A stretch of 64,000 bases of DNA, taken from positions 4,154,001-4,218,000 of the forward strand of contig OY744462.1 of NCBI GenBank assembly GCA_963556145.1. Direction: 5' to 3'. The position numbers and the translations under genes are program-made. The stretch comes from Hygrocybe punicea (lineage: Eukaryota; Basidiomycota; Agaricomycetes; Agaricales; Hygrophoraceae). This document shows, one piece after another, positions 11,124 through 44,440 of the stretch. Each line of letters opens with the position of its first letter. The stretch's first letter is position 1. Below the pieces are notes generated by a model. It worked only from the letters and a program-made list of their open reading frames with translations, was not told the origin of the DNA and did not search any database.

Positions 11124-11127
11124 GTCA

Positions 11128-17038: not shown

Positions 17039-17085
17039 CTAGTGGGGTGTGGGCCATTGCTTTGCATGGCATGTTACTTGTCCCT
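17039..17085 (-). other. Helentron 3' terminus: ATIR, hairpin and CTAG
   Basis: On the minus strand: GGGACAAGTAAC, AT, then GCCATGCAAAGCAATGGC (GCCAT/ATGGC stem, extended by GC pairs around a bulge), 10 bases, and CTAG at 17042-17039, followed by host TTTAG. The same block closes the nested element at 24219. Confidence 0.8.
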
Positions 17086-17107
17086 TCTTTTAGCAAGAGA
17101 ACACATA

Positions 17108-18103
17108 TTAAGATTGAGCATATATAAACAGTACAGCATTATTACCATTACATGACAATAAATTAATATTTGAAAAGTCATCTATATCACCTTCATTAAT
17201 ACAAATTGATCTGGTTGATATACCATCATGAAACCATACCATACTGTTGATGAATATGCGGGCAGTAAAATGTGCATCACCAAAGTACACAATTCCTCTC
17301 AATGTGTAAGCAGTGGATATGTCATCAATTGACAAGTTTATAACTTGACTAATTATTAAATTCTCAATAGAGTCAACTGTAAACATGATTAGAGGTGGAA
17401 TTTTGTTAAATGCAATAAATTTAGTAATCTCTCCCCAACACAATTGACATTTGTGCCGTTGTCTATTAACTATGATTTGAGCAAGACATGTTGAGATTGT
17501 TCCAGAAAATGAATATGAACAATGAAAGATGGCGTCATATCTATCATTTTCCAGAATGGTTATGTTTTCACAATTGATACATTTAAGACAAGTTGAAGTC
17601 ATTGGTTCATTTGCTTTCATTATATAATGGGCCAAATCACTTATGGCAATGCCAACTTGACCATAAGGAAATATTTCGGGTTTATCTTGATGCAATAAAT
17701 GTCTGATTGTATTTCTAACTGTTTCTAAATCTGTTGTGTGATTCTTGGATCGTTTGAATCCTAAGCTCAAAATCTTTAATATTTCATTGATGCTATTGAA
17801 TCTTTTTTTCCAACTTGATGGATCTTCATTCCATATTGCTAGTAATATTGTAAAGAGTGAATCATAAGCACAGCTCCAATCTTGCGCATCCCATATAAAC
17901 CCTTTTGGTTCATTTAATTCAATAGTACTTGTTTTTCGTCTTTTTTTCACTATGGAAGATGAACTTACAACTTGTTGTAATTTTTGTTTTTTATTTTGCA
18001 ATACATTGGCCGTCGAATTTTTATGAGTGACAGTGATTGGAACAGTTCCTTTTGCAGGAACAAAGTTGAGGTTTCTGAAATCTGCCTTTTGATTTTTGTT
18101 CAT
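17108..18103 (-). CDS. Helentron accessory ORF, USP/C19-like cysteine protease
   Basis: This encodes 331 residues, uninterrupted. A Lys-rich N-terminus is followed by WDAQDWSCAYDSLFTILLA (about residues 90-110), where the Cys would be the nucleophile. Two CxxC pairs (CLKCINC and a later CQLC) could bind zinc. LRGIVYFGDAHFTARI provides a candidate catalytic His, and MVWFHDGI a candidate Asp. This Cys...His...Asp order and the LRG-YFG-HFTA pattern resemble ubiquitin-specific peptidases, but similarity is distant. It lies just downstream of the helicase gene and near the 3' terminus, the same order as at 8422-12006. Published Helentrons can carry OTU-type cysteine proteases; a C19-like one would be a parallel. 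Function is inferred. Confidence 0.65.
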   Translation of the reverse strand: MNKNQKADFRNLNFVPAKGTVPITVTHKNSTANVLQNKKQKLQQVVSSSSIVKKRRKTSTIELNEPKGFIWDAQDWSCAYDSLFTILLAIWNEDPSSWKKRFNSINEILKILSLGFKRSKNHTTDLETVRNTIRHLLHQDKPEIFPYGQVGIAISDLAHYIMKANEPMTSTCLKCINCENITILENDRYDAIFHCSYSFSGTISTCLAQIIVNRQRHKCQLCWGEITKFIAFNKIPPLIMFTVDSIENLIISQVINLSIDDISTAYTLRGIVYFGDAHFTARIFINSMVWFHDGISTRSICINEGDIDDFSNINLLSCNGNNAVLFIYAQS

Positions 18104-21100
18104 AGGTTTAATTAATTGCCATGGAGAGGGCTGTGTTGTGTATTGATTTAGTTGCTCCGTGGCTTTCCATGCGATAGCATGATGAATGTTTTTTGGAATA
18201 TATGACTTTCCTTTCTATTTTCTAAATTGATCAATGATAGAATTTCGCTGATCTCCCTTGACATGGTCTGGTAAGAGTCCTTGATATTTCAGTTTGGTAA
18301 TCTCATCAAGCAGTTCTAATTCTCTGAATTCCTGCCTGAGATATCCAGAAGCACCCCCAGTAATTACTTTAGGATCAAAGCCTTGCATGATGATAGTTCC
18401 TGCTGCAGAAGCACTTCTTGATAAGCAAGTATAATAGGATTGGTGGTTTCTACAACTACTGAGGTCAACTACATTGTTAGGACGAGTACGTCCTTGACAT
18501 GCATAATCAGTCATTGCAAAATTAGGTAGTACCAACACTTGTTCTCTTGACAAAGATATCACATCATCATTGGGTAATGAGCACATGGTGGAAGTGACAT
18601 GTTTTGTAATCGGCACAACATTTTCAGGAAGTCCTTCTATGTTAATTTTTTTTGGAGGATTCAATAATCTGACAAATAAAGTGTCCAGTACAGTTTGTTG
18701 CTCAGGACCTATTGCACTCTGCCAACCCACAACTATGCCCTCTGCTCCTTTGGTAATGCAGCACTCTGTTGCATCATTGTTCCTCAGCATCACTGGCATG
18801 CCTACACATAAGTCCAATCTTCCTGGTATATGATCAGAGGATGATGCATGTGGTTGGCTCCAAAGTAGCTTTTGGAGTGAAGGTTCCAATATCTTTGTGT
18901 GTCGAATAGGATCCAAAATTGTTGACATGTGATGAGATTTTCTTTTGCTATTGGAACTAGTAGGATCATTCCATCTGTCTATGGAATAGAATGATGTTAA
19001 TGGTCTCCTATTTTCAGCAGCAAAACATTGAATACCAAGTTCATTGATTTTGTCTTTTTGTGCATTCAATGCAGTTATAACTGACACATTCCTGAATTTC
19101 TTTTGGGCTAATTTTGGATCATTTGGACCTTTTCCTGCAACACGAGTACGAAGAAATGCAATATCTTTGGGAGTACATGCTTTGTATCTCATGTTTTCCA
19201 AAGCAAGCCTCAGTTGGACATCTTCTTCTGACTGATTGGTTTGTCTCATATTTTCACGTAATATAACAACTGTTGTTATTTGATGCCAAAGAGCTTTGCC
19301 TATAGCCGCTTCCTGATTTGCTATAGTTTGACTGGAATTGATTTGGACACCACTCATAGCTGGTGGAAGTTGGCCAAAATCTCCTGCAAATATCATATTA
19401 ATGCCACCAAAGGGTTCATCATAAACACCACGTGCTTTTGCACACTGAGCACTGATTTTATACATATCTCTGCAAGATAACATTGACACCTCATCAATGA
19501 AAATGTAATCCACACCATCAAGATTGGCACGTACTTGTGCAAGGGAACGAGATGATCCTCCCTGATTAATTCCAAGAATAGAGTGATATGTGGATCCATT
19601 TACAAGGGCAGCAGCACCACCGGTTGGTGCAAGAACCACAAATCGATGATTTTCGTTGTGTTTACCAAAAAAACTAGTCAATGCTTTGATGACTTGTGAT
19701 TTCCCTGTGCCTGCCATCCCACCAAGATACATGCGTAGCTTATCAGAACCGTTAATCAAGGTAGAGTGATTTGCAATGATATGAAATGCTCTCTTTTGGT
19801 CAGTGTTCAACTTGTAATCATTGATAGTTACATCAATAAGATGACAATCAGCTCTGTTTGCAGGAATAAACATATGGTTGATGTATGCTGCATCCACTAT
19901 CTTGACATCATTATATTGAAAATTTCCCAATTTATTTATGGTTGCTGTGTTTGTTGGTAAATTTTTATTTCTGTCATCGATGATTTCCTTTTTCTTTGCA
20001 AGGACTGCAGTTCTCCACAATTTTGCTGATTGTACTACAGGTGGTTCTATAGGTATCAACGGTCCTATATCTAGGGTACCATCAATACAATCATCGAGCC
20101 ACCCTGACCTTTTCAAAGTTCTTTCAGCTATCAGCATTTGATCTTTCCTCTTTTGTCCTTTTTGACCAAGTTTCAGGAGTATTTCCGTGTCATTATTGTC
20201 TTCATCAATATTGTTGTTGAAGTCGTCGCCATTAAATGCAAATTCAGCATTGTGCATGTCATCCAGTTCATCAAGACCGTTTGAGGTTGCCCATGAATAC
20301 CTTATATTTGCAGTATTATTCTTCTGACGTTTAGCAGAGAAATCATCTCTTGCATCCAAACATTCATACCGCAGACCAAAGTATTTCATGATCTCTAGTT
20401 CTCTTTTAGAAAACTCGTGGTCTATAAAAGCATTATCCCATGTTTGTAATTTACTTTTGAGTTCTTTGCCACTTCTCCATGGCTTGAAAAACGTTAACAT
20501 TGTACAACAATAATATTCTCGATCACCACGGTCAGCCCTTGGCAAAGTGTTTGGAATAAAATTAGGAACTATGAAAGGATCATTCCCTTTCATTTTGGCA
20601 TGGTGGGTAAGATATTGTGGATGATTGGGATGTAAAGTATAATCATTTTCAAATTTTGTCAATTTATTAAGATCAACTTCATTTGTTTTATCAGCTATTT
20701 CTGTGCCTGCATGTCTATTCAAACTATCAGGTTTTGGAATTTCATCTATCTCCATGAGTATATCATTATCAACGACATCAGACAAGTTGTCATCACTGGA
20801 ATAGTCAACATTAGTAGGTTCAGTGCAAGAGTCAGACAAATCATCACAGCCTAGATTGTCAAAAATTTGGTTTTGCACTGGTTCTTTTCTGGCCCTTTTG
20901 GTCTTTGTTTTGGTGCGTCTTTTCTTTGGTTCCATAGTGGCAAGACGTATCCAGTCATACAGTGATACATTATCATACAAGGCGGGTCTGAACATATAAT
21001 TATTTACTTTGGAAAGTCCAATGTATGCGCCATTATTCTTACCAATAACAACCTTTTGTGCATTATTTTGGTCTTCACATATATTAGGAATTTCTTCATC

Positions 21101-21537
21101 AGACCATGCACTGATAACCTCTTTAACATAAGATCTCCAAAAGAATGGCACGAATTTATGACTGGTGTAGTGATCAGGATTTCCAAGGACATATAATGAA
21201 GCCATTGGAGCACCAATTTCCATTTTGGAGGTGAGTGAATTGACTATTTGTGTAAACAGCTTTCTGACTTTGTCTTTTCTTTTCAGGTCGCCACCAATCA
21301 TTTCGGAATTCTTATCAAAAATACTTTTTATCACTTCAAAAATGCTATAGGTCTTCAAGGAGAATTTTGTAATATAATCTGTTATGTATGCAACTATGGC
21401 CTTTATAGCAGTACCTGATAATAAGCTGGTCACATCAGAATTGCATCGTAGCATATATGTAACTTCAGGTGTCACCGTGTTCATCCAAGGTTCACCATGC
21501 TTGAGGTTGAGAGCACCAGTGTTAGGTTCTACAAAAG

Positions 21538-24219
21538 TTACGAGTCCCTATAAGGGAATCGTTTCTATACGGTGGATTTTTCAATTCAGGGTCACACTCT
21601 AATTTGCCAAGCCGTGGGAACAAAATTTCCAAACTGTGGGAACAATTTTGAAGCCCTGGGAATAACTATGAAACCGTGTGACTGGGCGGAGTTGAGTGTG
21701 AGAATTTGTTGTCCCAATCAGCAAGAACAATAAGGAAGCCGGATCACAGCTGCCTAGATCACATATGCCAATTTGGGAATAGATACTGTTATAGCATGGT
21801 TGCATCGCAGTTGCAAGCCGCAAATGTTTGACAACTTTGTACAACTATTGAATGCATTGGTAGTGCAATGGAATGGTTAAATGCAAACAGTGCACACTTG
21901 TTGAACATGCTGAGCAGTGTTCCACAAGGGTTCAGCAGGTTTCCCAGGTTGAGTCTGATGCATTGTCTGTGCACAAACATTTGTACGAATAGTATATTGC
22001 ATGTAACTACAATGTAGGGACATATACTGAGTTTGTTAGAATTGTTAATAAAGTGAACAGTGCACCCTTGTCGAACAGGCCAAACAGTGTTCGACAACTG
22101 TTCGACAGGTGTCCCAGCTTTAGTCTGGGGCATTGCAGATGCACAAACACTTTTACGAACAATGTATTGTATGTATCTTGGATGTAGTTACATGTACTGA
22201 GTTTATTAGAATTGTTAATAATGTGAACAGTGCACCCTTGTCGAACAGGCCGAACAGTGTTTGACAACCCTTCGACAGGTGTCCCAGCCCCACTCTGCAG
22301 CTTTGCCATTGCAGACAGAATTGTACAAACAACATACTGCATGTATCTGCAAGGTAGCAACATTTAATCTCTGCATCAGAATTTCTAATAATGCAAATAG
22401 TGTTCACTTGTCAAACATGCCGAACACTGTTCGACAACCATTTGGCAGGTGTGACATCCTCAATCTGGGGCTTTGCCATTGCAGACACAATTGTACAGAC
22501 AAAATATCACATGTCTATTTGATGTAGCTACATCCACTATGTCCTTTGGAATTATAGCAATACAAACATTGTTCACCAGGTGTCCCAGGCCATTGCAATT
22601 GCACAAACAATTGAAAAACTTCTATATTGCATGTTTCTGTGCTGTAGCTATATCTACTTTCAATGCACATCATACACAATACATGATCAATCCTTGTCAT
22701 CTAGGCTGATCACTGTTCAGCCAATCATTAGGCCAATGTCTCCGGTACAGTATCAGCCATTGCAGTACAACAGACACTGTCTGTTCTATAAATTCAATGT
22801 GTGTATGCGACCCATATATGTGTTATGTTTGCTGGAATTGGTTCAGGTGTGCAATGCTCATCAAACTGTTTGACAGGAAAATTGCCTCACCAGCTTTATT
22901 CAATCCAAGGCATTGCCACTGCACAAGCTGAACCAGGCATACTGTCAATTCAGGTACTCATCAAAACCAGCAATCTTATAAAATTTGTTGCAATAGAAGT
23001 GCAGTTGGTATCATTGTACATGGGATTATTTCTACAGTACTAACAGGAGGTTGTTCTTGACCTGACAAATAATGCAGATACTAAGAATTTCTAGATATAA
23101 TTACTAAATTTCAACTTGAATATGTATGTTCTTCACCACACCATAATGACTGTGTCATCAATAAATTCAAAAATTAAAAGTGAATATATATAAAATTGAC
23201 ATTGTACATCTCAGCTGAGAGTGTTAATGAGCCATTTTTTGTAGTGTCAAAGTAAAACCCCGTACTATGTCAGCAAACCTGTGCAATTTGAATTATCAAA
23301 TATATGAACATGATGGTATCAATAACAATCTAAACTGAAGTGGATCTGGTATAAATTACAGAGTAAATATGACTAATGATAAAGTAGTGAATTAGTTATA
23401 TATATGAACACTACAAACTTGATATGAAAGATGCTAATTTACAATCTGATATTGGGTTATGACAAATTGTAAGGAACAGGATATAATCAATTATAAAATG
23501 TATATCATTGTAGTATGGTGTCAGAATAGTATCTGAATATCATCAGTATGTGATAATACAGGAAATATCTATCATAGGAGGGTAACAATGCTGTATGATT
23601 GGTATACTGTACCATTTCGGTTAATTCACTGGTAAATGTGACCTGTGACACTGCCAGTGAAATAGTCAATTCATCATATTTAGTAGTGATGCGTGACATG
23701 TGGCAAAATTATCCAAGTCACATTCAACCATGTTAGCACTAGATATCCTGATTGATATCATCCAAGGTCATCTACCCAACCCAAACCTACATTGCTGTTG
23801 GAAAAACAAAAACAAACAATATCGTATAATCAAAATCTTTGTGTTAATTCTTATTCATGCTTTGAAATTTTACTTCCAACTGTTTTTAAATTTGTTCTTG
23901 AAAATATTTCAGAAATGTTGACCACCACAAGTTGCACAACTAACACTTTCATGGTGTGCCACATCCACAAAGAATATCAAAAGTTTGAAGAAATTTGTAA
24001 ATCCAGAAAGAAGATCTCTATTTCAAACAATTAAAAATTGCAAATTTGTTGACAGGGTTGTGTTTTTAGGATGTTATATAAACAGTATTTTTTGTTTGTA
24101 GAAAGAAAGGACATATATCAGTAGTAATAATGCTGCAGTATTTATATATAATGGATGTTCTCATTGCCAAAGAGGGACGAGTAACTTGCCATGCAAAGCA
24201 ATGGCCCACACCCCACTAG
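21538..24219 (+). mobile_element. 2,682-bp non-autonomous Helentron nested in Rep-helicase
   Basis: It begins TTACGAGTCCCTATAAGGG and ends GGGACGAGTAAC, hairpin GCCATGCAAAGCAATGGC, CCACACCCCACTAG, sharing both termini with the 22-kb element. It sits between the HUH motif and the Tyr motif codons: removing it gives F-Q-Q-T-F-V-E in frame. It has no credible ORF; the left third is a subterminal repeat array and the rest is AT-rich. Flanks are G and TTTG. It is presumably mobilised by a Rep-helicase of the same family. Confidence 0.9.
21840..22720 (+). repeat. Subterminal repeat array of nested Helentron (about 170-bp units)
   Basis: About five degenerate units follow each other, each with a TTGTCGAACA...CGAACAGTGTTCGACAA core, GACAGGTGTCCCAG, and GCATGTATCT. 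Units in the 22-kb element (38000-38760) are homologous and in the same orientation relative to the terminus. Confidence 0.75.
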
Positions 24220-27200
24220 TTTGTTGAAAGATATCACGGGGAAATCGTCGTTTACATTCACCTTTCGAATTAAGACAGTATGGCTTTTTTTTGCCATCAT
24301 GCCTGTTATGTACATTTAATCGCAATAAAAGATCATCTACAACATCTTGAAACCTTTGCCACCATGTTGATCTTTTGTTGTGATATTGACAATTCATGGA
24401 ACAATTATATGATGGTGGATCTGGCATGACACATGTTGGTGGTTGATATTCAGGTTTCGACATTGTCTGTTCCATTTTCTGTGATACCTCATCTTTAGAA
24501 CCTGTCATGAATTGTCCTACACACAAACTTTCCAAATATTCCACTAATCTTTTCTGAAAGTCAGAATTTTCACCCATAATTTTGTCACGTATTTCCTGAG
24601 GTGTAAGGCATCCCTTTATCCACAACAGCATATGAAGATGCAAGGTAAGACGTCCTTGTTCCTCTACTGTTGCATAATAACCTGATGTGTTTCCATACAG
24701 GCCAGGATGAGATTCATTTATTCCTAATATATGTTTGATGAACATTTCAGTAGTAAAGTGAAAAAAGCGGGCTCCAGCAACTGGATTGTTTGCAATTAGT
24801 TTGTAACAATCCTGGGGTAGACGTAGTTTAGGATAAAACTTTTCTTTGTTGTCAGCATAATATAAGCATAGTGGGTGATTGATGTCTGCAGGTGCAAAAG
24901 TGATAAACCAAGTTGGAGCACCAATATAGGATATCAGAGACCAAATCTCATTTCACATGTATTTCTTGTTAGTAATTGAACCTTTGACCTGACCAGCTAC
25001 GTGATCCAGATCAGAAATGAGTTTATAGCATGCTTTCTCTTCCGATGTATCTGGTTTGACTCTATCACCTCTAGATAATCTCTTAGAGAGATCATCCAAA
25101 ACAGCTGTATTGATATTCATCAGGCGATCTGCGATATCGTTGAAATTATGTTTATTAGTCAACAAATATCCTCCGGTTGTACTGTCCTTGATTTGTTCTT
25201 GATTGAATGCAATCAATGGAAAATAGGGATCAGTTTGAAATCTTTTGTCATGGTACATCAGAAGATGCCTTTTGTGCATCATATCACTGATGCTTAAAAC
25301 ATCCTTGTCAATGCTGCTAATACCACCCAAGCCATATGGAAATAGGCAGGGGAACATCATAGGATATAACTGAGGATTATTAAAGAACGATTCTGGATTT
25401 CTAGCATGGCTTATGGCAAGAACACCACCATGGTCATCTATCAAGTGCTTGGTTGCTCTAGCTATTAATGCCTTTGGACTTGTAATATCTAGATTTTCGC
25501 CAGTTACCCCACTAACAACAAAGGGACAAGGCCCATCTTCAACACCATCTTCCTCTTCATTGTCAAATGCACTAGTGGCTTCCGGTTCCTTATTTGTGTC
25601 TGCTGGTCGATATGCAACCACAACAGGAATTCCATGATCTGGATATTGTGCTAGATTTTCATAGGAGATATCTAAATCATAGTAATCCATGTGATTCAAT
25701 TTCAGCCATTCTAAAGCTGCAGAAACTCGCCTTCGGCGAACCAATAAAGGCGTTCGCTCCATGTCTTCTGGAGTTGGTCTGGCAGGACCAGTGAAAATAA
25801 ACGCTAGCACTTCATCAAGTTCTTTAATTGTTGGAGGCAACCGTTGATATATCTTTGGTGTTGGGTTTTGAAACATGATGGCATTTGCTTTCATTTTATG
25901 CATCCCAGAGGAGACACGAACAATACATTTGTTGTGACGAACACGGGCAATCAAAAGTTGTTCAGCAAATGTTAGATTTTGAAGTTGTGCAGGAATTCTT
26001 CCCATCCAAAGTCCATTCGCCAAAGCATATTTGGGAGTTTGGCCTTTATTCAGACTGAGCACACATGGTTTGCATATCCATTTACATGTGTCATCTAGCA
26101 CTGGACCTTTGATATCCTCTATTGGATCAGAACAATGATATCGTTCACATCTTGTGATTCCCATATTGTCTCTAGTTAATATTTTCAGATTAACCTTCGT
26201 CTTTGACAATAAAGACATGTTTTTCAATGCAACCAATTGACCACATACAGCACACCCACTTTCTTGGAAACATTCAGGTGATGTATCTCTGCACCAGTTG
26301 CTGATTATGGTTTCCTTCAATTCAATAGATGGAGGAGGAGGAGGAAATAATTGCTCATCTGACTTGTCCAATTCTTCTTTCATTTGAGCCTGAGTTTCTT
26401 CTTTGCCGCACTCATATGTTTCTGTCATTTTTTGTCTTCTGTACCACTGTCTACACAGGTCTTTATGTGATTTAATATCATGCACATGAAAAATAGAAAC
26501 ATGAGTATCACAAGCTGAACAATTATGCCTCATTAATGCCACAGATAGATCTTGTCCATGTAATCTTCGTAATGTCTTTGACAAATATATACCATGTATT
26601 GTTGTTATTTCACCAATATCCTTCACTGTCAAATTTGGCAGAAGTTCATGTAAAGGCATTTTAACACATGCATATGTTTTTCTATCTTCATATAAAGTGT
26701 TGGCTGTTTGTTCATCAATATGCCCCACATATTCGAATAATATGTCAGAATCATGGTTGATATTATTAGACGGTAGCATAAAAGATTGAAGAAAGCTAAA
26801 CTTGAATGTTGGTATTCGTTTACCACCACCAATGTAGTCATATCTATGAACGAAATTTATATATAAAGATTTAAACAAGTGTCCGAATAAATTCAAATTG
26901 AACACAATTATGTTTGAACGGCTATGCCGTATTATGAAACATAGTGTGGTCCACAGCAACGTTGCATGTGATAGAGAACTAGTAATACAATGAAATAAAT
27001 ATGTTTTGAAATCATGTCGTCTCAATAGCGATCGCATGAGCAATGCTTTGATCATTTTACAACAACATTGGACAGTGATAGGTTTGAGAAGACAATACAA
27101 AGCAAAGAGATATTTAGGAGGTAAGAAATATGTTCTGGCATATTGAATAGAACGTATTCGCATTTTGAAGGCGCTATTTTTAAATGTAGTCCAAACGAAT

Positions 27201-27508
27201 AATGGATCGACTGTCAAGTTATCTTTTGTGTCTTTTGTTATTCCAATGATCTTTACATATAGTGTTGCATTTATTTGCATCAATATTGTTGCATCGCCCT
27301 GATCTGGGGCCAACTCATGTTCTATGAGTTTTCTTTGAAAAACACCCAATTCTTGGGTCAAGGTCGATATCACAGGACAGGAAATTGGTTCAGGAGAGAT
27401 ATACATAAGTTTGTCTTGGCATAGTTGTGGAAATAATGTTGCATTTGCAAGGAAATATAGATAAGTCAAACATGCAATGCAGACACGGATGATGTTGTGG
27501 GGATTCAT

Positions 27509-28497
27509 GAGGATTTGTGACAGTAAGAGGAAACACTGCCCATTTAACTAGTCAAGTGGTTCGGATCATGAATAACAATTAACACAATGGGATTGATCAT
27601 ATGACATTATATTATTTGTAAGCTTTTCCCAAAACACCATAAGGCGTGCCTGAATCTTTAGAAATCTGTGTTTACTTTTTTTATTCCATTCTATGTTCCT
27701 GTGACATGCCTTGATACAGGCCAAAAATGCATCTGTATCATGAATAGCTGCCTTACGATCTTATTAGGGGTCTGGCTGACAAGACATTGATCCAACCAAC
27801 TGAGACAAAACAGGTATTGAAGTTGAACAACCAGGCTGTTTGACAACTGTGCATATTTGACAATTACTTGGTAATTCGTGGAAATTATCATTGCTCTTCA
27901 TCCTTGTCAGAAATACATTGTCATTTTTATGGAGCTGTACGTATCATTCCCACACAAGTATACTGTATTATTCCGGTACCAAATAGTCATAGCTCCCCTT
28001 GGAGTGACAGCTATATCTTCCACTACAAGAGGGGGTTTTGTTACTCTTGTATCATTGTATCCTCATTTAATAGGTCCATAAAGTTCGCGATTCTGGTTTC
28101 TTACATATATTCAATTTTAATTTTCGTTAGCCCGAACCTAAGTCATCTCAGGTTGTCCTTCTCAGGTTGAGTGAGTCGGTAGTTGTACTATGAACTGAAC
28201 TGAAAGTAATGCATTCACCAGGATATATTTTAGACAAACAGATTTTCAGTCAACAAGATTGATGCCTTACGTTGTATCTATGCTTACTATCATGCTCAAT
28301 TCTTATGGTCATACAGTAACACAAGTCATTTTTAACAGAGCAAAAAGAAGTACATATATAGACACTGTAGCGATGTATGAGGAGGACATTTGAGGGCACA
28401 TGTTTCCAGAAATCAACGACTGGGATAAAGTCGTTTTAGTCAAATATAATGAATACTCCACAAAAAGAAGGACTTACTCCTTCGAAATTAAGGCCCG
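27509..28497. other. AT-rich spacer inside Helentron
   Basis: Between the Rep ATG and the last exon of the cargo gene at 28498-30409. I see only short frames and no motif; it may contain the Rep promoter. Confidence 0.4.
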
Positions 28498-30409
28498 GGA
28501 TCCAGTTTGGATGTCGACAGCTTGGGAGATGAAGGCCTCGTTTGGCTCGGAGGAATCGAGAGTAGGATTTCGGGTGGAACGATGTTGCTCCAATCCACGT
28601 CCATCGATGAAGCGCTGGGCTCCACAGGGGTCGATGATTGGTGGCGTGACGATGCACGCGTATTGGGACGGAATCCTAGGACGTTAAGAAGATCAGAATT
28701 GGAATAGATACAGACATGTGATGTTGAAACACATACCCGGAGTCGGTGACTTCTTCGGTGGCTTCACCAGTTTGAGCTTCTCTGCAATAATGCCCGCTTG
28801 CTCCAAAGCGACATCTAGCTTCCTCCTCTTTGTTATCTCGCCGTCCTCGTGATCACTGCTGAGAGACTCTTGTTTTGGTTCGGGAGGTCCATCGTCGTTG
28901 TGCATGATTGCATCGTGATCGACATCCAACAACCCGACCCACTCTGTTCCTACAGCGTCGAACTTCGGGGATTCCAGTGGAACATCAACCGGCTCGGAGG
29001 AGATGGGTGGTTTAACTTCCACTGTCAATTTTTCGGATTCCGATTTCTTGTATCCGTGCGACGGCCCAATTTCGACAGCGACTGCGATATGTCAGTGCAT
29101 TAATCATAGCAACGTGAGCAATGTACGCATTTGAGCCTTGGACCGCTTCTTCTTTACCGGGGCTAAGTCTTCCTCCATCTTTACGTCGTCTATACATGAA
29201 TAAATGTGTTGGATTATCGTTTTGATATTCGGAATTCAATAACTCACCGTCATCGTCGTCCTCGGCTTTGGACTTGATTGTACGTTCTGTCATGAAGAAG
29301 GGTTTTCATGTATGACAATCACAGACAATGAAAGTACTTACTGGACTTGGGTTTGGGCTTGGGCTTCTTTTTGTCCTTCTCGGACGAATTGTCTGCGCCA
29401 CCTGAATATTCAGTACATCTATACGCCGGTATGGTAGAAAATTTGTACAAACCAGCGGAAGATGTCTTCTGTTTTTTGACCGATTTTGACTTGGCTTTGC
29501 CCTTGCCCTTGCCCTCGGGAACCAGCCCCTCTGCAAATGTATTATATCATTAGCACAATCACATATGTAATTCTAGATCATACCTTCATCATCGTCCGCC
29601 ACATCGGCATCGACGAGGACACTATGTCCTTTACACCAAGCAATAACCTGACCGATTATTTCGAGCTTTGTGGCGTCCGGAAGCCCACCGAACGACCAAT
29701 TTGCAGAGGTTCCGCTGTGCCATGCTGGCACAGATTCGTCGTATTTCGCCCAATCTATGATGCCAGACGTCATAATCCATTTGTCTGCCAATGCGTATAT
29801 ATACTCACCGAGGTCCTCTGGCATGGTCTCGGTGCTAACAGCGCCATGTTGAATTAATGCCGATGGAGAATGCTTGCCGACATAAAACTCTTTGAGGAGC
29901 CAATCGTCGAAGATCGTGCTTCACCAGTCACGGGTAACCTCGTTGGCCCGTTTTGCGACCAAAACCTCTGCCCAAATTTCGTCCATGACGGTGTTGGTAT
30001 ACTTGAGGTAATCCCGAAGTAAATCAGTCCCTTCCTTATCGTTTTTGACGTAGTCCGGCGAGTAGTTGGGTGCCTTGTTGTATGCGATGGCTGTTGTCGC
30101 ATAGATGTACATATCCATTTGATAAATCAAGCGATGGAGCGGTTCCTCGTATCGTTCGGGGATTTCGCGCCATAACTCACCTCGGGCGGTGGCATCGTGG
30201 GGGTGTGTCTTCAGTACATAGAGATTACGAGAAAATACGGGAATGGTGCCGGATTCCTTGTTGGGTGCCGGAATCTTGGGTGGGACCATGTACTGGATTT
30301 GGAAGATGCGATGTAGCTCCTGCAGCTTTTTGGGCGGCGCAGCAGGCCAGTACTTGAAGGCGGCGGGATTGACAGCGGGAGTCGAGGTTTTGACGACTGG
30401 CAAGGACAT
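28498..30409 (-). pseudogene. Cargo gene: hypothetical protein, multi-exon, one nonsense codon
   Basis: The reading starts at ATG 30409 (MSLPVVKTSTPAVNP). It runs to a TGA at 29921-29923 flanked by R-D-W and S-T-I-F-D-D-W in one continuous frame, and ends exon 1 at 29584. Five or more short GT-AG introns follow (first 29583-29532), the rest encoding Lys/Glu/Ser-rich, probably disordered sequence, ending at TAA 28498-28500. The first part has an ordered look (KYWPAAPPKKLQELHRIFQI, later GELWREIPERYEEPLHRL). I recognise it as a mushroom-type hypothetical protein but cannot give a function. Inside the Helentron it is apparent cargo. Apart from the TGA, splice sites and frames look well kept. Confidence 0.6.
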
Positions 30410-30789
30410 GGTAGATGAAATAAAAGTTTTTTGGTCGACGTGTGAGGCGATTTGAGAGCAAAAGAAAAGGGCGGATTTATTACTCAACGCTCCAGACTAT
30501 GAATACGGATGTCACGACCACGTGACCAGATCAATCACCACATGTTCTACCTCATGTTCGGCTTCTTTGCATGCATAAACAACAGATCTATTTATTTATG
30601 TTTTTGATGTGGCTCGAGCTTAGAAGTTGTCCAAAGCTAGTAATTGCACGCAGAAAACCGACATGTGCAGCGTATGGAATATTTTCCAGTTGGTAAGGCG
30701 ATAAATCGAGTTAATTCGTTCGATGAATATTCACGGACTGGTCCGTTGATGGAAAAGCACAACAAGTCTGACTTGTTGGATGGATGTAG

Positions 30790-31260
30790 AAGGACTAGAT
30801 ATACTACAACAAACATGTTGTTTGGTGTGTTCGGTCACCGGACATGTTTGGTGGATGTCAATGTACGACTAGATATACTACACCGAACACATCGAACATG
30901 TTCGGTGTGTTCGGTGGAGATGTTTGGTGGATGTCAACCAACGGTTGTGACTAGATATATCACACCGAACACATCGAACATGTTCGGTGTGTTCGGTGGA
31001 CATGTTCGGTCAACGTTGGTGAACCAATATTACCAGATATATGACGCCGAACAAATCAAACATGTTCGATGTGTTCGGTGTGGTATATCCGGTCACAACC
31101 ATTGGTTGACATCCACCGAACATCTCCACCGAACACACCGAACATGTTCGATGTGTTTGGTGTAGTATATCTCCTCATAATGGTTGGTTGACATCCACCG
31201 AACATCTCCACCGAACACACCGAACACGTCCGATCTGTTCGGTGGATATTGCTCTTTCAA
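30790..31260. repeat. Array of palindromic CCGAACA/TGTTCGG repeats
   Basis: Imperfect units of about 110-120 bp contain ACCGAACACATCGAACATGT and its inverse, with ACTAGATATACTACACCGAA spacers. The right-hand units are inverted relative to the left, so the whole array could form large hairpins. Lies between two divergent cargo genes. CGAACA motifs also occur in the subterminal arrays. Confidence 0.75.
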
Positions 31261-31497
31261 GACATTTAAATGATTCCATTGCTGATCAACGTGTTTGGCA
31301 CGTGTTCGTTGTTTTATCATTGCCACTCTTGTCAGGTGACATAATTCCGACGTCTTATAATTAGAAGGTTTGTGGAATCGTCACCACCCGCTATCAACCA
31401 CCCTGAAAGTAATCAATCATTAAGGTATTGATGTATTAATGATATCTGTGTCTGTTCCTCATACCACCCATCCGAAATCCTGCCTAGGTCCACAAAC

Positions 31498-33320
31498 ATG
31501 CCATATAAGAAGGAACTTGGTTATGAACTTTGCATGCACATCTGCCCTGGTCGAAAATGCGACTCTCCAAAAACGAAATGTCTTTTGTGGAAGAAGGAAG
31601 GCAACTCCTGCCAAAGACATGTCGGATCCGCACACCAACATCCCAAATGCATTTCATCTGGAATTTGTCCGCAGTCGGTATGTCTTGGTCGCAACATACG
31701 TGGAAATTCGCAGGGTGTCCGCAATGCGACGGCCGCGGAACTCGATCTCCTTCCACGCAAAAGGCTATCATCCGACTCTGAGATGGAAACATCATCTGAC
31801 TGTGAAATGGAACCGCCAACCACCATAAGCAACAATGAACGCCGTATAACCACATTAAGCAACAATGACGGCCGTGTTTTCAAAATCCTTTTTATCCTTG
31901 ACCCAACAACTCGTATCGCGAGCAAAGCCGCAGCCATTAACGATCTTGCATTCGTCACCACGACCATATCCGACATCGAACTCGATACCATTGCCCATCT
32001 TGATGGTTACGTCCATATCATCAAGTCATACAAGAGTCGCTATTCAGCATGTATTCAAGAATGGGTAATGTCTATTGTTTAATTTGTGGATTGTTGATAC
32101 TGAAACGTATTTCACAACAAACAGGTTTATATCGGAATGCGACTACATCATGAGGATGGAGCCCGGCGCTTCAATGTCAAATACATATTTTGGCCCGAGT
32201 TCCTTCATGCAATACTTCGCCATCAAGACAAAGGCAATACGTGGCAAAAGTTCGCATCGGCAGATTGTGTATTTGGTGGTGTGGATATGGGAATGTCATA
32301 CATGTAAGATTGACATCGCTTTAATTAATTCTGCTCCATTTTCGCTGCATTATACTGATGTCTTGACAGCGGTAACCAATATGGATTGACACTGGAAAAT
32401 GTGTCAATTTTCATGACTGGCATGGACGAACTCTGTCGAACGGCACACATCTGGCCGCCTCCGAAGCAGATGAACACGGTCCATTCAAAATGGATACAAA
32501 ATCAAAACTTGCTTCATGTCGCTTTGAATGTAACGCATATGATACGCCCTCAAGCAAAATTATTAAACGATGGCGACCAATTCCCACCGAATATTGTCTT
32601 GAAATGGACACACAGCAACACCGGTCATCACGTCCTATTACCTGGCGACACCAAGCGAAATTGGGAATACATGCGCAATAACTGTGAGGTTCCAGGTTCA
32701 CGTTGGTTTGGGCAAACGTACATCGAACCACTGAGTAAGATGGGCGAATGGCGTGTGTTTCTAGTTGGTGGAAAGGTCGTGTATATGGTGCACACCCTGT
32801 ACAACAAGGAAAGCAAGTCCTGGAAGTGGGATATTGTCTCAAGTTTCTATACCTTGGATGAGTTAAGGTGAGTGCCCTTCATTTTCACTTGTCATATCAT
32901 ATGCATGATTGTCTTAACTTTGTCAGAATATTTCAAACGCAGGGGACTCTATTGAAGATGGTGGCGTGCAATCCGGACAGGGGCGCCATTTCTATTCGAG
33001 AGCAAGGCAGAAACGAGTTCTTCGACTTTGTCCAAAAGACCTACGAAGGGCTTTATGCGATAGAGTCCAATATGGTTGGTGGAAAACCATCGATGAGTGT
33101 TTTTTGCCGTATGGACATATCGCTCATTGTGGATTCCAAAACGGATACTGTGGCCTATTTCGTGAACGAGGTGGAACGTTATCACACATGCAGCCTCTGG
33201 TCGAACATGAAGTCAGGTCCGAAATCCGTTCGAGCACCCATTGGCTCATTAGCAGACACTTTTGCAGGGGTTTTCTATAAATGGTTGATTGACATCAAAG
33301 GTCCATACTCATATTTGTAA
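31498..33320 (+). CDS. Cargo gene: hypothetical protein, possible ATP-grasp-like C-terminus
   Basis: Four exons, 31498-32064, 32125-32303, 32370-32867 and 32927-33320, join in frame across 59-66-bp GT-AG introns to give 545 residues without a stop. The N-terminus is Cys/His-rich (CMHICPGRKC, CQRHVGSAHQHPKC), probably zinc-binding. A Ser/Asp/Glu linker follows. The C-terminal half contains RWFGQTYIEPL, GEWRVFLVGGKVV, and DISLIVD...YFVNEVER, which resembles the metal- and nucleotide-binding end of ATP-grasp enzymes, a tentative call. The last intron acceptor was chosen at 32926 because the alternative AG at 32942 gives an immediate stop. It lies in the Helentron, convergent with the gene at 33783-35803. 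An intact spliced structure suggests recent capture or selection. Confidence 0.75.
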
Positions 33321-33900
33321 TATTATCTGTACAGTCAATGGATTGGTTCGCGTTTATTTCACAAAACAGACATAAGATACAAATATAAATGATGCTAAGT
33401 GGAGCAATCATTTCGGCACTCCCAAGACCATGACCCATTGCACATTGAGTGAAATGCTCTTCATCATGTCATCTACACGCTTGAATGTATTGATGGTGTG
33501 TCCAACAACGACACAGGATCCTGCAGGGATATTGTGCAGGAAGATGGGTAGTTGCGGTATTTTATAAATGGCTTGTAGACATTACAAATGTATACTCATA
33601 TTTTTGAACTTCACTTGTACATTAGTCAACTTTAAATGTCACAAATCGGATCTCATGTCTGAGAGGCACGAAACGCTTTGATTTCAATGGTAGGTACATT
33701 ACAAATTCAAGGCAACATAAAGAGAATTGGCAATAGGCCACGCTGCATGGCACACTAGTTTCATGACGAGAAAGACGACAAGTTAATGAGAGACGCCCAA
33801 TACCATCACCCACTGCACATTTAGGGAAATACTCTTCAACAAATCATCAGAGCGTTTGAAGGTATTGATCGTGTGGCCGACCACAACGCACGATTCTGCA
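33270..33900. repeat. Tandem duplication of the convergent gene ends
   Basis: 33270-33540 and 33545-33900 are diverged copies. Each has the 3' end of the plus-strand gene (TTTTATAAATGG...CATACTCATATTT) and the last-exon end of the minus-strand gene (GTTGTTGGACACACC-like, coding C-V-V-V-G-H-T-I-N-T-F-K). The copy next to 33320 is a non-functional remnant of the minus-strand gene's last exon. Confidence 0.65.
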
Positions 33901-35803
33901 GGAACATCGCCTGGAAAGTGGGGGAGTTTCTGAAGTATTTTGAGGGTGTCGGTAAAGTCCGTTTTAACTTTCCGGGCATCATAGATTGGGACTATGAATA
34001 CAGGCATCAAAAACGAAACCAAGGACATTGTGTGAGAGAGAATAAAACTAACCAATGTCATGGAATGACAGCGCAGTCTTTTGGTAAGATGGAGCGGGAC
34101 CTCGAGTAAAAGGACTAGACTGCATGAATTTCGAAGAGGAAGCTTCTATTGAATATGAGTAAGGATTGATAACAGAGCATTGAATGTATACTCACTGCTA
34201 GGAGATGCATCCATCCCACTTGCCGCTGTCGTCGAGAAGGACAGAAAGTCCTTATATAGTTGTGCACGAAATTCCGCCTCACCAGTGACCATTCCAATGG
34301 CGCCAACATACTGCTCCCATTCTCCTGAGAGTAAAGCCCCTTGGATGACTTTGATCGGTTTCGTGTTCCCACCAACTTTTGGCTCATCAAGGAAGCATGA
34401 ATCGACTAGAATGACAGAAGTGAAGATCGTTGGGATGGCACCAGCAACGGAGTGGAAGAAACTACGCCCAAATGCTCCAGTAGAGATATTGGCAGGATCG
34501 TCACGAGAAAGATTTGAGTACTTGCCAGATCGAACAAAGGTCACTGTGGAAAACAGCAAACTGTTATGCGATGTGAATTGTCTTTAACCATAAAGTCCTA
34601 GCTGACAGCTTACTTTTGGTTGACCTTGCGAATGTTGCTGATAACATCGCTGTACTGAGGATTGCCATTCCCTATAGCACTAGACCAAGATACCATGGCC
34701 GCTGCCCTATTCAATATTAAGCATTGCTTAAGAAGATAAAACCGAATAGTTACTTGATGTTGACACAGTCCTTATATGTATCGACCAACTGAGGGTCTCT
34801 TGTACCAATGTTGGACTCATCCGTGTTTGGAGAGCGTATGCTAAAGCAAGGACATCAATTAAAAAAATAATAGACAGATGTAATGTACCTGGTGATTTGG
34901 TTTTGTGCATATGTCACAGCTCCATCATCGCTACTGGAAACATTGTCGTCACTGATATCATGAAGACGGGTAGTCTTTGTGACTTTGGAGGAAATCGCCT
35001 TCATGGTTTTGATGGATGTATCAGAGTTGCTGATCATTTATTAATATATGAAGGACAAGAATCATATGAAGTATCATACCGAAGACCATTATCTGCATTT
35101 GATTTCTTAGAACCGAATTCGAGTTTTGCGATAGGCCTACAACATGTCTAACATATGACCAATTATTCAATTTCCAACTCACATGAATGTTTCGTCGCTG
35201 TCGTCATCCTCATCATGTAATTGATGCTGGTTTGACTTTGTCTTCTTCGATGGAGAAGAGAATTTACTATGTAAAGCGATTAAAGAATACACAAATATAA
35301 AAGACATTATTTAGAGCTACTGACCTGTCTTCGTCTTCCTCTGAAGCATGCCGCCTTTTACCGCTGAATATAAAGAATATTAGTTTGCATGAACAGTATA
35401 AATTGAACTTGCAAACCTTGCTCTATTGGTGGTCTTCCTGGACCGCCTATATTACTGAAGTAAATCACTAGTATCTGAAAATACAATTCATGAGACACAC
35501 CTCATAGACGAGACGGGTTTGGCAATGCTAGCGACGCTATGAACACTAATAACGTCTTCGTCTTCGGAGTTGGCAATACTACTGGTGGCTTAGTCATGGT
35601 GGATGAATCAGAATATTGGAATAAACACGTACACTTCATCATCGACAAGCTTGGTGGTGGTGACCTTCTTACCCTTCCTAGAAACAACAGTATGACCTTT
35701 ATTCAGAACGAGCAGCAATACATGAAAATAAATATACATACGAAACGGCGCTTGATCGAGCTTTGGACTGAGTCTTCACATTCACAGACTTCTTAGGGGC
35801 CAT
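33783..35803 (-). CDS. Cargo gene: hypothetical protein with many short exons
   Basis: ATG at 35803 starts a Lys/Ser-rich exon (MAPKKSVNVKTQSKARSS). It is followed by several exons of 35-90 bp, each bounded by GT-AG, that encode alternating basic and acidic disordered sequence down to about 34800. The best supported exons are 34196-34543 (AFGRSFFHSVAGAIPTIFTS, later FLSFSTTAASGMDASPS) and the last, 33783-33991 (PIYDARKVKTDFTDTLKILQ to WVMVLGVSH, TAA). Not every splice junction was checked for phase, so the full protein is uncertain. I recall this only as a mushroom hypothetical protein. It is one of four non-transposon genes in the Helentron. Confidence 0.6.
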
Positions 35804-36706
35804 TGCAAAGATAAGAGCTTTAGGGCGAGGAATGAATCTGTGCGAGATATCGTAGATGAATGAAGGGTCGGATGTGGACGATACCATTGCGCTCTCATCG
35901 CTATTTAAGTACACTGAGACAGATCGAATACAATAAAGAACTCGTTTATGGAGATCACACCGGCAGGTATGAAAACTACATCTGTTGATGGTTTGAAGGA
36001 AAACTATTCAGATCATAGCGCCATAAAAATGAAAAGAATCAGGGACATTCCCCATGATGTAGAACCCATGATTGACCAGCTGTTACGCTCAGCATCATCC
36101 AACAACATGGATATGGATTACTGGTATGGAGAATAATCAAACACTAAGTCTAATTAGGATTTTGGAATGTAGAACAGCTGTCACCACATGGAACTGATCA
36201 TAAGATCATAACACAGCCAAATCGGAAATAGAAGTTTATGTGACATATTTACTCATTTCCAAACAAATACAAACATCGGATCAACTATACTGACAGTTGC
36301 ATCGGAAACAAATCATTCTGAATGGATAGGGGTTTCCTTTTAATGCTGTACAATAAGGAGGTCAAGCATGACGATAGCTGTCGATGTATATCCTGTCCTA
36401 TAAAATGGAGAAAAACAATAAGAATCTATTGAGAAGATCTGCAACACAAGAATGCAAACACCATACAGACATCACAAGTTCATGGAGGATGAACATGATG
36501 CACTGCCATAATCTCGATGACGATCGAAAACGATTCATGATAAAACAGTCGAAAATTGCATTTGAATTATAAATCCCACTTCCACTTTGCAAATGGACAC
36601 CTATTACGATTTCAAAAGCGCATGTCAGTCCATATACCACTGAAGGCATTCATACATTCAACTCTACTTTACAGCTGAACATTTAAGTAATCTCATATCG
36701 ACACGG
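35804..36706. other. Intergenic spacer between divergent cargo genes
   Basis: Contains a 62-codon plus-strand frame at 35948-36136 and a 62-codon frame at 36384-36572 with no recognisable domain or flanking splice signals. Probably the shared promoter region of the two divergent genes. Confidence 0.4.
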
Positions 36707-37768
36707 ATGGACAATGATGACAGTCAACTCGCCAATGCTACAAATGTATGTTCAAATTTTACGATGTATGCTGTGTTTCATTACATTTGCAGATTTCGAA
36801 TATCAATGTAGTTCATAATGACTCACCAAATTGCTGGAAACTTACACGGCCGAGTACTGATACCACCGAGCATGAAGAACTTGTCTTAAGCTTACAGGCG
36901 ATATTGGTGGCCAAAGACCTACCACCAATCACCAGCAGGTATATTGTTCCATCACATAAATCGTAAACAATTGATATACATATATTTTCCAGACCACCCG
37001 AACGTCGAACACCATTTCTTCGTCAGAGCATCCTTATAGCAGGTCTCAACATACCACTGTTCGAATCGTACCTTGACAACCTCCGCATCTTACATCAGAA
37101 ACTGGCCCGTACTTTCCCAGAACGTGCAATGCTGGACTTCACGTCATCCACCTATATCGAATACACTGCATTATCTATTGGCACCCGATACTTCACCGAT
37201 CGCCGACATGACAATGTTTCATACCATATTCCATTCGAACACAACGTCGATCCCAAAGGTATCCTGTCATCCATGAGCAATACTCGATACTTCCATGGGA
37301 CGGATAATGAGGTCCTTTATTTCAAGTTAACATCAGACGGAGGCCGGCATTGGTGAGTGCTCAGCACAACAATAGTTTGACCATTGATAATGATATAGAT
37401 GACAGCTTTGTACCTGCCAGTCCAACTTGCTTCAGGATTGGTGACATTGTAGAAGTCCAGATGACGGTATCGGTGGTTTCAGTCAAGAACGACAAATTTA
37501 AGATGATACTCAATCTGCGCTCATTAGCGCTGGTCAACAGCGAGTTTACTGAGGTACCAGACATATCTAATAATTCAATGAATAATAACTAATGTACATC
37601 CAGAATGCAACAATAGGTCGAATGAAGGCACCTCATCCTGCTCTCAATACAATGACCAGGATTAATATCAAACGTAATGTGGGTTATGTCCAGTTGACAG
37701 ATGATGGTGAAGATGTCATAGAAACCCGAAGACGTTTGACAAACCTCAGGATGAATGAAACCGATTGA
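36707..37768 (+). CDS. Cargo gene: hypothetical protein, five exons
   Basis: Exons 36707-36745, 36793-36938, 36993-37352, 37406-37553 and 37604-37768 splice through 47-54-bp GT-AG introns into 285 residues with no stop. The middle has KLARTFPERAMLDFTSSTYI. Exon 4 encodes CFRIGDIVEVQMTVSVVSVK and KMILNLRSLALV, a probable small beta-barrel. The C-terminus is basic then acidic (RRRLTNLRMNETD). The exon 4 motif is one I associate with an uncharacterised mushroom family. It is the cargo gene nearest the Helentron 5' end and is complete in every frame I checked, so it may be expressed. Confidence 0.75.
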
Positions 37769-37999
37769 CATCCATTATCATTACGTCGTACACTCACATG
37801 TTTGCAATCACACATCATAATCCATGAATACCAATTTTATATGATATTATTTTCTGCAATACGTTCACAAGTGAAATAACAACACAAATGGTTTCAAGAA
37901 GTGACTAGATAACTGAGTATTATTTAATTATATAAAGTCCTCATCAGTTTCCTGTTTGCATTATTAATATATTCAAAGCACGTTAAATTTTAATACATC

Positions 38000-38760
38000 G
38001 CAAAAATGTTTGATATGTTGTTTATACAATGGTTTGTGCAAGGGCAATGCTGCAGATTCATGCTGGGACATCTGTTGAACGCTTATCAAACGGTGTTAAA
38101 ACCGGCCTGTTCACACAATTATTCACTGTTTGTATTATCAACAATTCCAATGCACATATTAAATCTTGCTACATCACAGATACATCCAGTATATTGTTCG
38201 TACAATTGTTTCAGCAAATGCAATGCTGCAGGGTAATCCTGAGACAGCTGCCAAACACTTGTCGAACAGTGTTCGGCCTGTTCGACAAGTATTCTCTATT
38301 TGCATTATTAATAATTCTAATGCACATAGTACATGTAGCTACATCACAGATACATCCAGTATGTTGCTTATACAATTGTTTCTGTGAGGACAATGCCCTG
38401 GATCAAAGCTGGGACACCTGCCGAACACTTGTTGAACAGTGTTCGACCTGTTCGACAAGTACCCACTGCTTGAATTGTTAGTAATTCTAATACTCATTGT
38501 ACTTGTAGCTACATCACAGATACATTGAATACAATGTTCATACAATTGTTTGTGACAAGGCAATGCTGCAGATTGAAACTGGGACACTGGCCGAACACTT
38601 GTCGAACACTGTTCAGCCTGTTCGACAAGTACCCACTGCTTGCATTATTAGTAATTCTAATACACATTGTACTTGTAGCTATATCACAGATACACCGAAT
38701 ACATTGTTCTTATAATTGTTTTGGCAAAATCAATGCCTCAGATTCAAGGTGCACACACGT
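38000..38760 (-). repeat. Subterminal repeat array of the 22-kb Helentron (about 171-bp units)
   Basis: The phrase AGCTACATCACAGATACA recurs near 38166, 38337, 38508 and 38676, a period of about 171 bp. Each unit holds CCGAACACTTGTCGAACA and GTTCGACCTGTTCGACAAGT. The units correspond to those at 21840-22720 in the nested element. Confidence 0.8.
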
Positions 38761-39202
38761 AATTCCAATGCATCCAGCAAAATATATGTATCTGCAGACA
38801 CACATTTCACATATGGTTCATCCTGTGTCTACCACACAGAAAATATACCTAGGAAACTCATTGAACACTGAACACTGTTCAGCCCATTCACCTCATCTAT
38901 ATTTCAAAAGGTGCACATTACACTACCAATGCAGTCCGTTATGTCAATAAAGCTGTCAAGCAAAGACGTTGCAACACTACCTATTCCAAAATTGGCAACT
39001 GTGATCTGGGAACCTGTGATCAAGCCGCCTTATTGTTCTTGCTTATTGGGACACCAAATTCTCATAGTTACAAAGTCAGCAGTCACACGGTTTCAAAACT
39101 ATTCCCAGGGCTTCAAAATTGTTCCCACAGTTTGCAAAGATTGTTCCCACGGCTTGGCAAATTAGAGTCTGACCCTGAGTTGAAAAATCCACTGTATAGA
39201 AC

Positions 39203-39225
39203 GATTCCCTTATAGGGACTCGTAA
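39203..39225 (-). other. Helentron 5' terminus
   Basis: Minus strand reads TTACGAGTCCCTATAAGGGA. The next about 60 bases are nearly the same at 21538-21610, fixing the end by comparison. A short CCCTATAAGGG palindrome lies 9 bases in. Confidence 0.8.
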
Positions 39226-44071: not shown

Positions 44072-44139
44072 AACCTCCTGTGATGTCCTCTGCAGGTCCT
44101 CTTGATGCTGCTGGTGTGAGTGCTCTTCAAGTAGTCTCC

Positions 44140-44440
44140 GCTCTTGCTGCCCTCCTTAATCCTGCTACATGTACTTCAAGCAATCTCAATCTCTGTAGCT
44201 CCTCTCAATGGTGCTGATGTGATTGCACTTCAAGCAATCTCAACCTCCGCTGCTCTACTTGATGTTGCTCATGTGAATGCCTTTCAAGTAGTCTCAGCCT
44301 TTGCTGCTCTACTTGATGCTGCTTGTGTGAATGCTCTTCAAGCATTCTCAGTCTTCGCCACTCCTCTTGATGTTGCAGATGTCACTGGACTTCAAGCAGT
44401 CTCATCATCTCCTGCTCCTCTTGACATTGTTTGAATGAAT
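44140..44440 (-). repeat. 54-bp coding-type tandem repeat (Gln/Leu/Arg-rich)
   Basis: On the minus strand each unit encodes something like HSHEQHQVEQQRLRLLER, about five units with stops in some. It would be a coiled coil at the N-terminus of the Helitron protein. Gln-rich sequence continues up to about 45000. Confidence 0.6.

Follow-up and report, generated by a model that had tools for sequence, protein, structure and literature searches.

The DNA analysed here is a stretch of 64,000 nucleotides of the basidiomycete Hygrocybe punicea (contig OY744462.1, positions 4,154,001 to 4,218,000, or C2:4154001-4218000), which we call the window. It contains a rolling-circle transposon of about 22 kb, which interrupts a long interspersed nuclear element (LINE) and carries four spliced genes in addition to its replication gene (RepHel). 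Short introns and the protein relatives would fit an agaricomycete. The locus makes it testable whether genes borne by Helitrons merely ride along or form part of the transposition machinery. The reading we favour, to which we assign a probability of roughly 0.8, is that the element belongs to a high-copy family of Helitron2/Helentron-like transposons of about 19.5 kb, the usual gene set of which consists of a RepHel of about 2600 residues and four spliced accessory genes. Judged from sequence comparisons, purifying selection acts on these four genes, which look like the element's own.

To define the borders of the element, the two LINE flanks were joined and used as query against the genome (92.2 Mb, 42 contigs). 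Here, we obtained 14 full-length matches at 88-96% and two weaker long ones (78%, 66%). In all 12 loci that were fetched and aligned, the empty site CTCTAAA|[CT]ATCACC was intact and the LINE read through uninterrupted. In the filled site, the sequence CTAG...CTCGTAA sits between the two halves of this motif, with the left boundary CTAG at 17039 and the right boundary CTCGTAA terminating at 39225. The empty sites fit the ends placed by the first-pass annotation of this DNA, except for a shift of up to 2 bases in the A run, which is possible because A flanks both borders. The stop codon of LINE open reading frame (ORF) 1 (TAA) occupies positions 17035-17037, the element begins one base later, and to its right lies the LINE endonuclease-reverse transcriptase ORF (Pfam Exo_endo_phos_2). 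The LINE is thus interrupted between its ORFs, as had been described. The minus strand gives the insert as TTACGAG...CTAG, as TACGAG...CTAGT or in a register shifted further, at a TTT; in view of this ambiguity, the target may be either G^T or T^T. Both empty sites, that in the LINE and a second one in the Rep region, contain TTT, so that T^T, the insertion site typical of Helentrons, is possible and G^T likewise. In the junctions printed, TT precedes ACGAG in 9/9 cases at the 5' end, and T follows CTAG at the 3' end in 10 element junctions and 7 others. Two A or T border bases were counted as element, since other copies have one shared base only.

For comparison, ten elements (E1-E10) were fetched from elsewhere in the genome, E6 being cut at its left end. 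The shorter sibling nested in the Rep region of the window copy was missing from all nine other copies that have the site; E8 lacks the site. The empty Rep site reads AAAAGTTTGTTG in seven copies, and E4 and E9 are each one base off. No target-site duplication was seen at the 12 LINE empty sites or in the nine copies with the Rep site.

The termini flank many other elements in the genome. The left-end 38-mer (up to 3 mismatches) gave 351 matches and the right-end 21-mer (up to 2 mismatches) 360, with 0 for the reversed controls in both searches. End pairing was carried out with 100 listed left ends and 113 right ends (100 listed, 13 added from another search). A same-strand partner within 80 kb was found for 52 of the 100 listed left ends, and the other 48 had no listed partner, in part owing to the cut of each list at its first 100 entries. 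Among the same 100 left ends, 48 pairs were shorter than 40 kb, 26 of which measured 18.0-20.8 kb. The asymmetric inverted repeat that had been claimed was recovered: TTACGAGTCCC at the 5' end corresponds to TTACTTGTCCC, located 36 bp inside the 3' end, at 9 of 11 bases by eye. The 3' CTAG was confirmed as well, and the 5' terminus forms a hairpin (z -3.93) that none of 200 shuffles equalled. The 3' hairpin of the first-pass annotation did not hold, its fold being no better than chance (z -0.30; 67/200 shuffles equally good). At the end of E10 (C3:7339206), the left terminus stands immediately next to a shortened right-terminal sequence from a different copy (GTATAGAACGA|CTAG), which looks like an end-to-end joining of two elements.

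When we compared the gene content of the fetched copies, we found all four genes in the same order in 7/10. E1, E2, E3, and E7 are 97-99% like the window copy over nearly the full length, except for the nested insert and a minisatellite, and the right end of E3 is only 90% alike. E4, E5, and E6 hold all four genes, with some blocks merely 66-92% alike. In E10, gene 1 is truncated and genes 2-4 are present; E8 has lost internal sequence and retains genes 2-4, of which gene 4 is interrupted by about 0.56 kb. No alternative gene set was observed among these ten copies and a partly opened copy of 29.6 kb (C1:2838980-2868624). The 20 kb opened of the latter contained the usual genes, with Rep interrupted by a Gypsy element, of which 6.6 kb were in view and which, from the length of the copy, should measure about 10 kb. 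The extra length is thus due to Gypsy and not to other genes. The first-pass annotation had suspected a recurrent gene-moving vehicle; the element is indeed recurrent and present in many copies, but the copies seen carry one gene set and not varied genes. A search with the main exon of gene 4 gave 176 first-look candidates, and 28 of the best 40, which were scored, were followed by a listed right end at no more than 15 kb. On the five contigs with a complete list of exact right ends, to which those of another search were added, a right terminus lay downstream of gene 4 in 22/22 cases (within 4.2 kb in 21, at 12.1 kb in one). The refuting findings named in the first-pass annotation thus failed to appear: the termini do flank other elements, and none of these 22 cases showed gene 4 apart from a right end.

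The claim that four multi-exon genes lie between the 5' end and Rep was borne out. The script for spliced genes sometimes invents introns to pass a stop, and its models were used only where those of the copies agree. Two of the genes had been described as fully open after splicing. This is correct for the 545-residue product of gene 2; the 285-residue model of gene 4 reads as given, but a further upstream exon, matched in a divergent lineage, lengthens it to 306 residues. Labelling the four genes as non-transposon genes found no support. The constraint on them was quantified by NG86 comparisons of the A and B lineages of the element, the ratios of which depend on saturated synonymous divergence (dS) and on the exon models. 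The proportions of synonymous (pS) and nonsynonymous (pN) differences were 0.726 and 0.218 for gene 2 (dN/dS 0.10, 536 codons), 0.691 and 0.105 for the core of gene 3 (dN/dS 0.06, 213 codons), and 0.775 and 0.192 for gene 4 (305 codons), where dS was saturated and not computable. For gene 1, dN/dS values at low divergence were 0.20 (E1-E4, 262 codons) and 0.12 (E1-E5, 186 codons). Near-saturated synonymous change coincides with limited amino acid change in three genes, and therefore these genes look long kept by the element.

The window copy is chimeric: two lineages meet in it at a microhomology of 2 bp. It is of the E5 type up to position 33555 and of the E4 type from 33554 onward, and at the crossover parents and product have just GC in common. 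The B-type tails between genes 2 and 3 of the window copy have longer gene counterparts in E5 and E4, and because these copies hold the longer versions, the window type is the derived one. Genome-wide, we counted 22 junctions of the window type, 105 of the E5 type, and 53 of the E4 type, with 0 for the controls. On five contigs, which hold 14 of the 22 window-type, 53 of 100 listed E5-type, and 23 of the 53 E4-type junctions, the distance to the right end was determined from the listed exact right ends plus three from another search. A same-strand right end was listed within 25 kb of the junction in 14/14 (window type), 34/53 (E5), and 14/23 (E4) cases, and at 5-7.5 kb in 13/14, 32/53, and 12/23. 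The corresponding figures for random positions were 2.9% and 0.34%. Going by the junction observed, new versions of the element may be produced by replication or repair switching from one copy to another at tiny homologies, and the window copy would be a member of one such chimeric type. A 22-copy chimera with a 2-bp junction represents a natural record of element recombination.

RepHel of the window copy is broken by in-frame stops near 18215 and 24953 and by the nested insert. The 2594-codon ORF of E10 matched the Rep family Helitron_like_N (PF14214, E 2e-32) and a PIF1-type helicase (PF05970, E 8e-21), and no endonuclease family was found in it at E 1 or better. In PHROGs, the matches of RepHel were to helicase, to exonuclease V, and to a single unknown family. 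Its C-terminal extension gave no Pfam match and no significant match in the Protein Data Bank (PDB). The motif CAYDS...HFTARIF in this extension resembles, by eye, a deubiquitinase-type cysteine protease, and no library supports this. The open RepHel ORF of E10 is intron-free, whereas the four accessory genes have introns.

Our element shows the properties of the Helitron superfamily, namely Rep, a PIF1-type helicase, and insertion without target-site duplication. Canonical Helitron1 elements start with 5' TC, end with 3' CTRR, and insert between A and T. The 3' CTAG of our element agrees with this pattern, but its 5' end, (T)TACGAG, departs from it, as do the two empty sites, which, depending on the register, read G^T or T^T instead of A^T. 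By its ends and domains, the element would fit the Helitron2/Helentron branch (PMC5148889, PMC4067079): the domains, CTAG, the 5' hairpin, the asymmetric repeat, and the T-rich insertion site all point in this direction. Helitron2 elements lack an endonuclease and combine the asymmetric repeat with a hairpin at either end, of which only the 5' one exceeded chance here. The term Helentron-like used in the first-pass annotation is therefore appropriate for a rolling-circle element of the Helitron2/Helentron kind, and the unusual size was also rightly noted, but it is not a strict Helentron, since the 2594-codon ORF yielded no apurinic/apyrimidinic (AP) endonuclease. If the chemistry of the Helitron family applies, RepHel, with the Rep and helicase domains observed, would nick and copy the element, which, judging by its ends and empty sites, inserts at a T-rich site without target-site duplication. 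The most likely role of the accessory genes would be to help the element to be replicated, handled in the nucleus, or expressed.

As to individual functions, the product of gene 4 might bind single-stranded DNA, and that of gene 2 might be a ligase-like enzyme of the ATP-grasp type. Gene 4 itself had no Pfam match, and one of its 14 relatives gave a weak match to the OB-fold family MEIOB (E 0.061). Named relatives come from Piloderma, Coprinopsis, Hypsizygus, Collybia, Pluteus, and Flammula, and they include a 19-member cluster from Piloderma. For gene 2, weak ATP-grasp matches below the curated cut-offs were obtained with one exon (GSH-S_ATP, E 0.016) and with the relative P0015 (RimK, E 0.018; R2K_3, E 0.14). 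Gene 2 also has the motifs GEWRVF..GG and RMDI...NEVER, which are common to three sequences (NEIER in one). The protein collection contained one relative each of gene 2 and gene 3, the latter in Piloderma. Gene 1 had no Pfam match, none of the four genes matched RPA or OTU families significantly, and PDB sequence searches gave nothing significant. A viral origin was tried and rejected: scans of IMG/VR with alignments of genes 2 and 4 gave no relative, and the relatives of genes 2-4 remained unmatched in PHROGs.

Several observations weigh against the picture of a high-copy element with its own four-gene set. E9 (C2:78463-88739, 10.3 kb) has RepHel and both ends and none of the four genes, so that either an element can do without these genes or E9 is moved as a passenger; E9 could be a deletion derivative or a form predating the gene gain. 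An uninterrupted RepHel ORF was present in E10 alone (1/11 copies), and the dN/dS of RepHel (0.25-0.57 among close copies, 0.27 against the more divergent E9) indicates weak constraint. Most sampled copies look dead, and weak constraint is expected if many recent copies are. No right end was listed within 25 kb for 19/53 E5-type and 9/23 E4-type junctions, which may have mismatched right ends or belong to truncated copies. A divergent host gene 4 outside elements could be missed because the best 40 of 176 candidates were scored. The proposed functions draw on Pfam matches below the curated cut-offs; the full-length type-B protein of gene 2 showed no ATP-grasp match at E up to 10 and gave weak matches to metallothionein and winged-helix families, which are unrelated. 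The AlphaFold2 models were of low confidence (pLDDT 46.4 for gene 4 relatives, 36.4 for the gene 2 relative), and we treated the absence of Foldseek matches at E 0.001 with these models as meaningless.

Alternatively, a host gene cluster may have been captured once in the distant past and kept for host benefit or by hitch-hiking, not for transposition. Purifying selection shows use and not for whom, and the occurrence of gene 4 relatives in several Agaricomycetes is compatible with this scenario. We nevertheless consider it unlikely, since the 180 junctions between genes 2 and 3 in one genome and the Piloderma cluster (genomic context not in view) both suggest element-borne genes, and gene 4 lies upstream of a right end in all testable cases. 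It is improbable that the A and B forms go back to two independent captures of diverged paralogs, with part of the purifying selection having acted in hosts before capture. Between the forms, DNA divergence is about 30-34% in genes 3 and 4 and about 1% in most of the Rep half, as such captures would predict, but recombination between lineages, as seen at 33554, explains this uneven divergence. Moreover, both forms agree in the order and orientation of four unrelated genes, in the six-exon layout of gene 4, and in their related 5' ends. A slightly poorer candidate still is recent capture of host genes as passive cargo by one element, other copies bearing other genes. The introns of the four genes next to an intron-free RepHel ORF, the annotation of their relatives as hypothetical proteins in fungal genomes, and the existence of E9 would suit such a vehicle; the shared genes and gene order extend, however, into divergent lineages, purifying selection between lineages is strong, and the one long copy that was partly opened owes its length to Gypsy. 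For the copies sampled, we regard gene capture as largely refuted and varied recent cargo as rejected. The chance that two independent insertions or an assembly artefact mimic one element is practically negligible: the structure is nested and mosaic, but the empty LINE and Rep sites rule out separate insertions as the source of the ends, and the 48 same-strand pairs of the same ends are most often spaced near 19.5 kb.

The following comparison of the preferred reading, an element with its own gene set, with known systems draws on parts of the papers cited. HELPO1 of Pleurotus ostreatus (1.5-13.7 kb) inserts at AT and has cap genes downstream of RepHel, which were described as captured; in several further basidiomycetes, capB lies beside RepHel and points the same way (PMC4289320). 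Like our family, it is a basidiomycete Helitron, each intact copy of which bears one to four element-linked genes of unknown origin. Our element is larger (19.5 kb) and has a T-rich target; this comparison was made by description, and the parts of PMC4289320 covered give no selection test and no chimera junction. Titles and abstract starts in the open-licence PMC literature revealed no fixed multi-gene module in a basidiomycete Helitron besides HELPO1. Thus, conserved element-linked genes in fungal Helitrons are not new as such, HELPO1 being the nearest precedent (PMC4289320). Our family is larger, and its four-gene set is spliced, conserved, reshuffled, and common to lineages. The FoHeli Helitron2 elements of Fusarium oxysporum share with our element a RepHel without endonuclease, the asymmetric terminal inverted repeat, and a terminal hairpin, and Helitron2 elements generally insert at T runs (PMC5148889). 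They measure about 5-11 kb and are without an RPA-like gene (PMC5148889), in contrast to 19.5 kb and four accessory genes here. Helentrons resemble our element in their large RepHel with C-terminal extension and in T-flanked insertion, and they also have known accessories (RPA, OTU protease) (PMC4067079, PMC6431247); the AP endonuclease that defines them was not found here, and our accessory genes lack significant RPA or OTU matches. Gene-capturing maize Helitrons are likewise large rolling-circle elements with genes (up to 39 kb), but they carry gene fragments (PMC6431247), whereas the genes here are complete, constrained, and shared. Cargo differing between copies, the hallmark of gene-capturing Helitrons, was not seen. 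Fungal Helitrons have been reviewed as elements of 6-7 kb, growing to 14 kb, in which capture of full-length host genes is exceptionally rare (PMC6431247). With about 19.5 kb, some 350 copies of each end, and complete spliced genes under selection, our family exceeds this range.

One may go further and consider a distinct class of multi-gene rolling-circle replicons, a Helitron2/Helentron lineage of Agaricomycetes with a stable gene set (RepHel including its C-terminal extension and four accessory proteins), phage-like swapping of modules at microhomologies, and spread between species as a unit. This wider proposal is tentative, and we think it doubtful rather than probable. Independently of it, annotation of this genome calls for caution because about 180 copies of these gene blocks could be miscounted as host genes. 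The coordinates of the features are given in Table 1.

Table 1. Features of the transposon in the window (positions counted from the first letter of the window)
Feature	Position	Strand	Basis or remark
Whole element	17039..39225	-	Empty LINE sites, other copies; 22,187 bp = 19.5-kb canonical element + 2,682-bp nested sibling
Element ends	5' end 39225, 3' end 17039	-	Each uncertain by up to 2 bases
3' end, ...CACACCCCACTAG; weak palindrome, inner half of asymmetric inverted repeat at 17074-17084	17039..17088	-	38-mer matches
RepHel (DUF6570, Helitron_like_N, PIF1)	17108..27547	-	Profile matches; one 2594-codon ORF in E10
RepHel C-terminal extension, Cys/His motifs	17108..18214	-	Protease-like by eye
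Nested shorter sibling, same termini, opposite orientation, within Rep region	21538..24219	+	Copy comparison, empty Rep site
Gene 1, N-terminal domain without known family and charged low-complexity tail, about 8 exons (partly by hand)	28488..30409	-	In-frame stop near 29920
82-bp minisatellite, direct and inverted, between genes 1 and 2	30770..31244		Rich in CCGAACA/TGTTCGG; extent varies between copies
Gene 2, 545 residues	31498-32064, 32125-32303, 32370-32867, 32927-33320	+	Cys-rich N-terminus, possible ATP-grasp C-terminus (weak)
Chimera junction 33554/33555	33400..33615		Truncated tail of gene 3 type B, then truncated tail of gene 2 type B
Gene 3, script-predicted with about 10 exons and an uncertain start; C-terminal half conserved, without known family	33783..35803	-	Copy comparison
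Gene 4, 306 residues, 6 exons, possible OB fold (weak)	36593..37768	+	Models, relatives
Gene 4 exons	36593-36623, 36675-36745, 36793-36938, 36993-37352, 37406-37553, 37604-37768	+	Splice models
5' subterminal tandem repeats, unit about 170 bp, present in nested sibling too	37952..38751		Repeat and copy comparison
5' end, TTACGAGTCCCTATAAGGGAATCGTT; strong hairpin, outer half of asymmetric inverted repeat	39200..39225	-	21-mer matches, fold

The neighbourhood of the element contains further mobile sequences. An AT-rich repeat with inverted arms, which resembles a small non-autonomous element, interrupts the LINE at 40248-40621, and a second copy lies at 11127-11501. One Gypsy family is present twice, at 1-8151 and, oriented the other way, at 51319-58009 (copies 91-94% alike); it is also this family that has inserted into Rep of the 29.6-kb copy. 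A PIF1 helicase remnant of a related, diverged Helitron was found at 8353-11122. Beside it lies a 344-bp palindrome, the arms of which are 98% complementary and 55 bp apart; it resembles the 5' region of B-type elements. The remnant of another Helitron extends from 41167 to 46782, with Helitron_like_N at 42724-43689 on the minus strand and inverted repeats at 41.8-42.3 and 46.3-46.8 kb.

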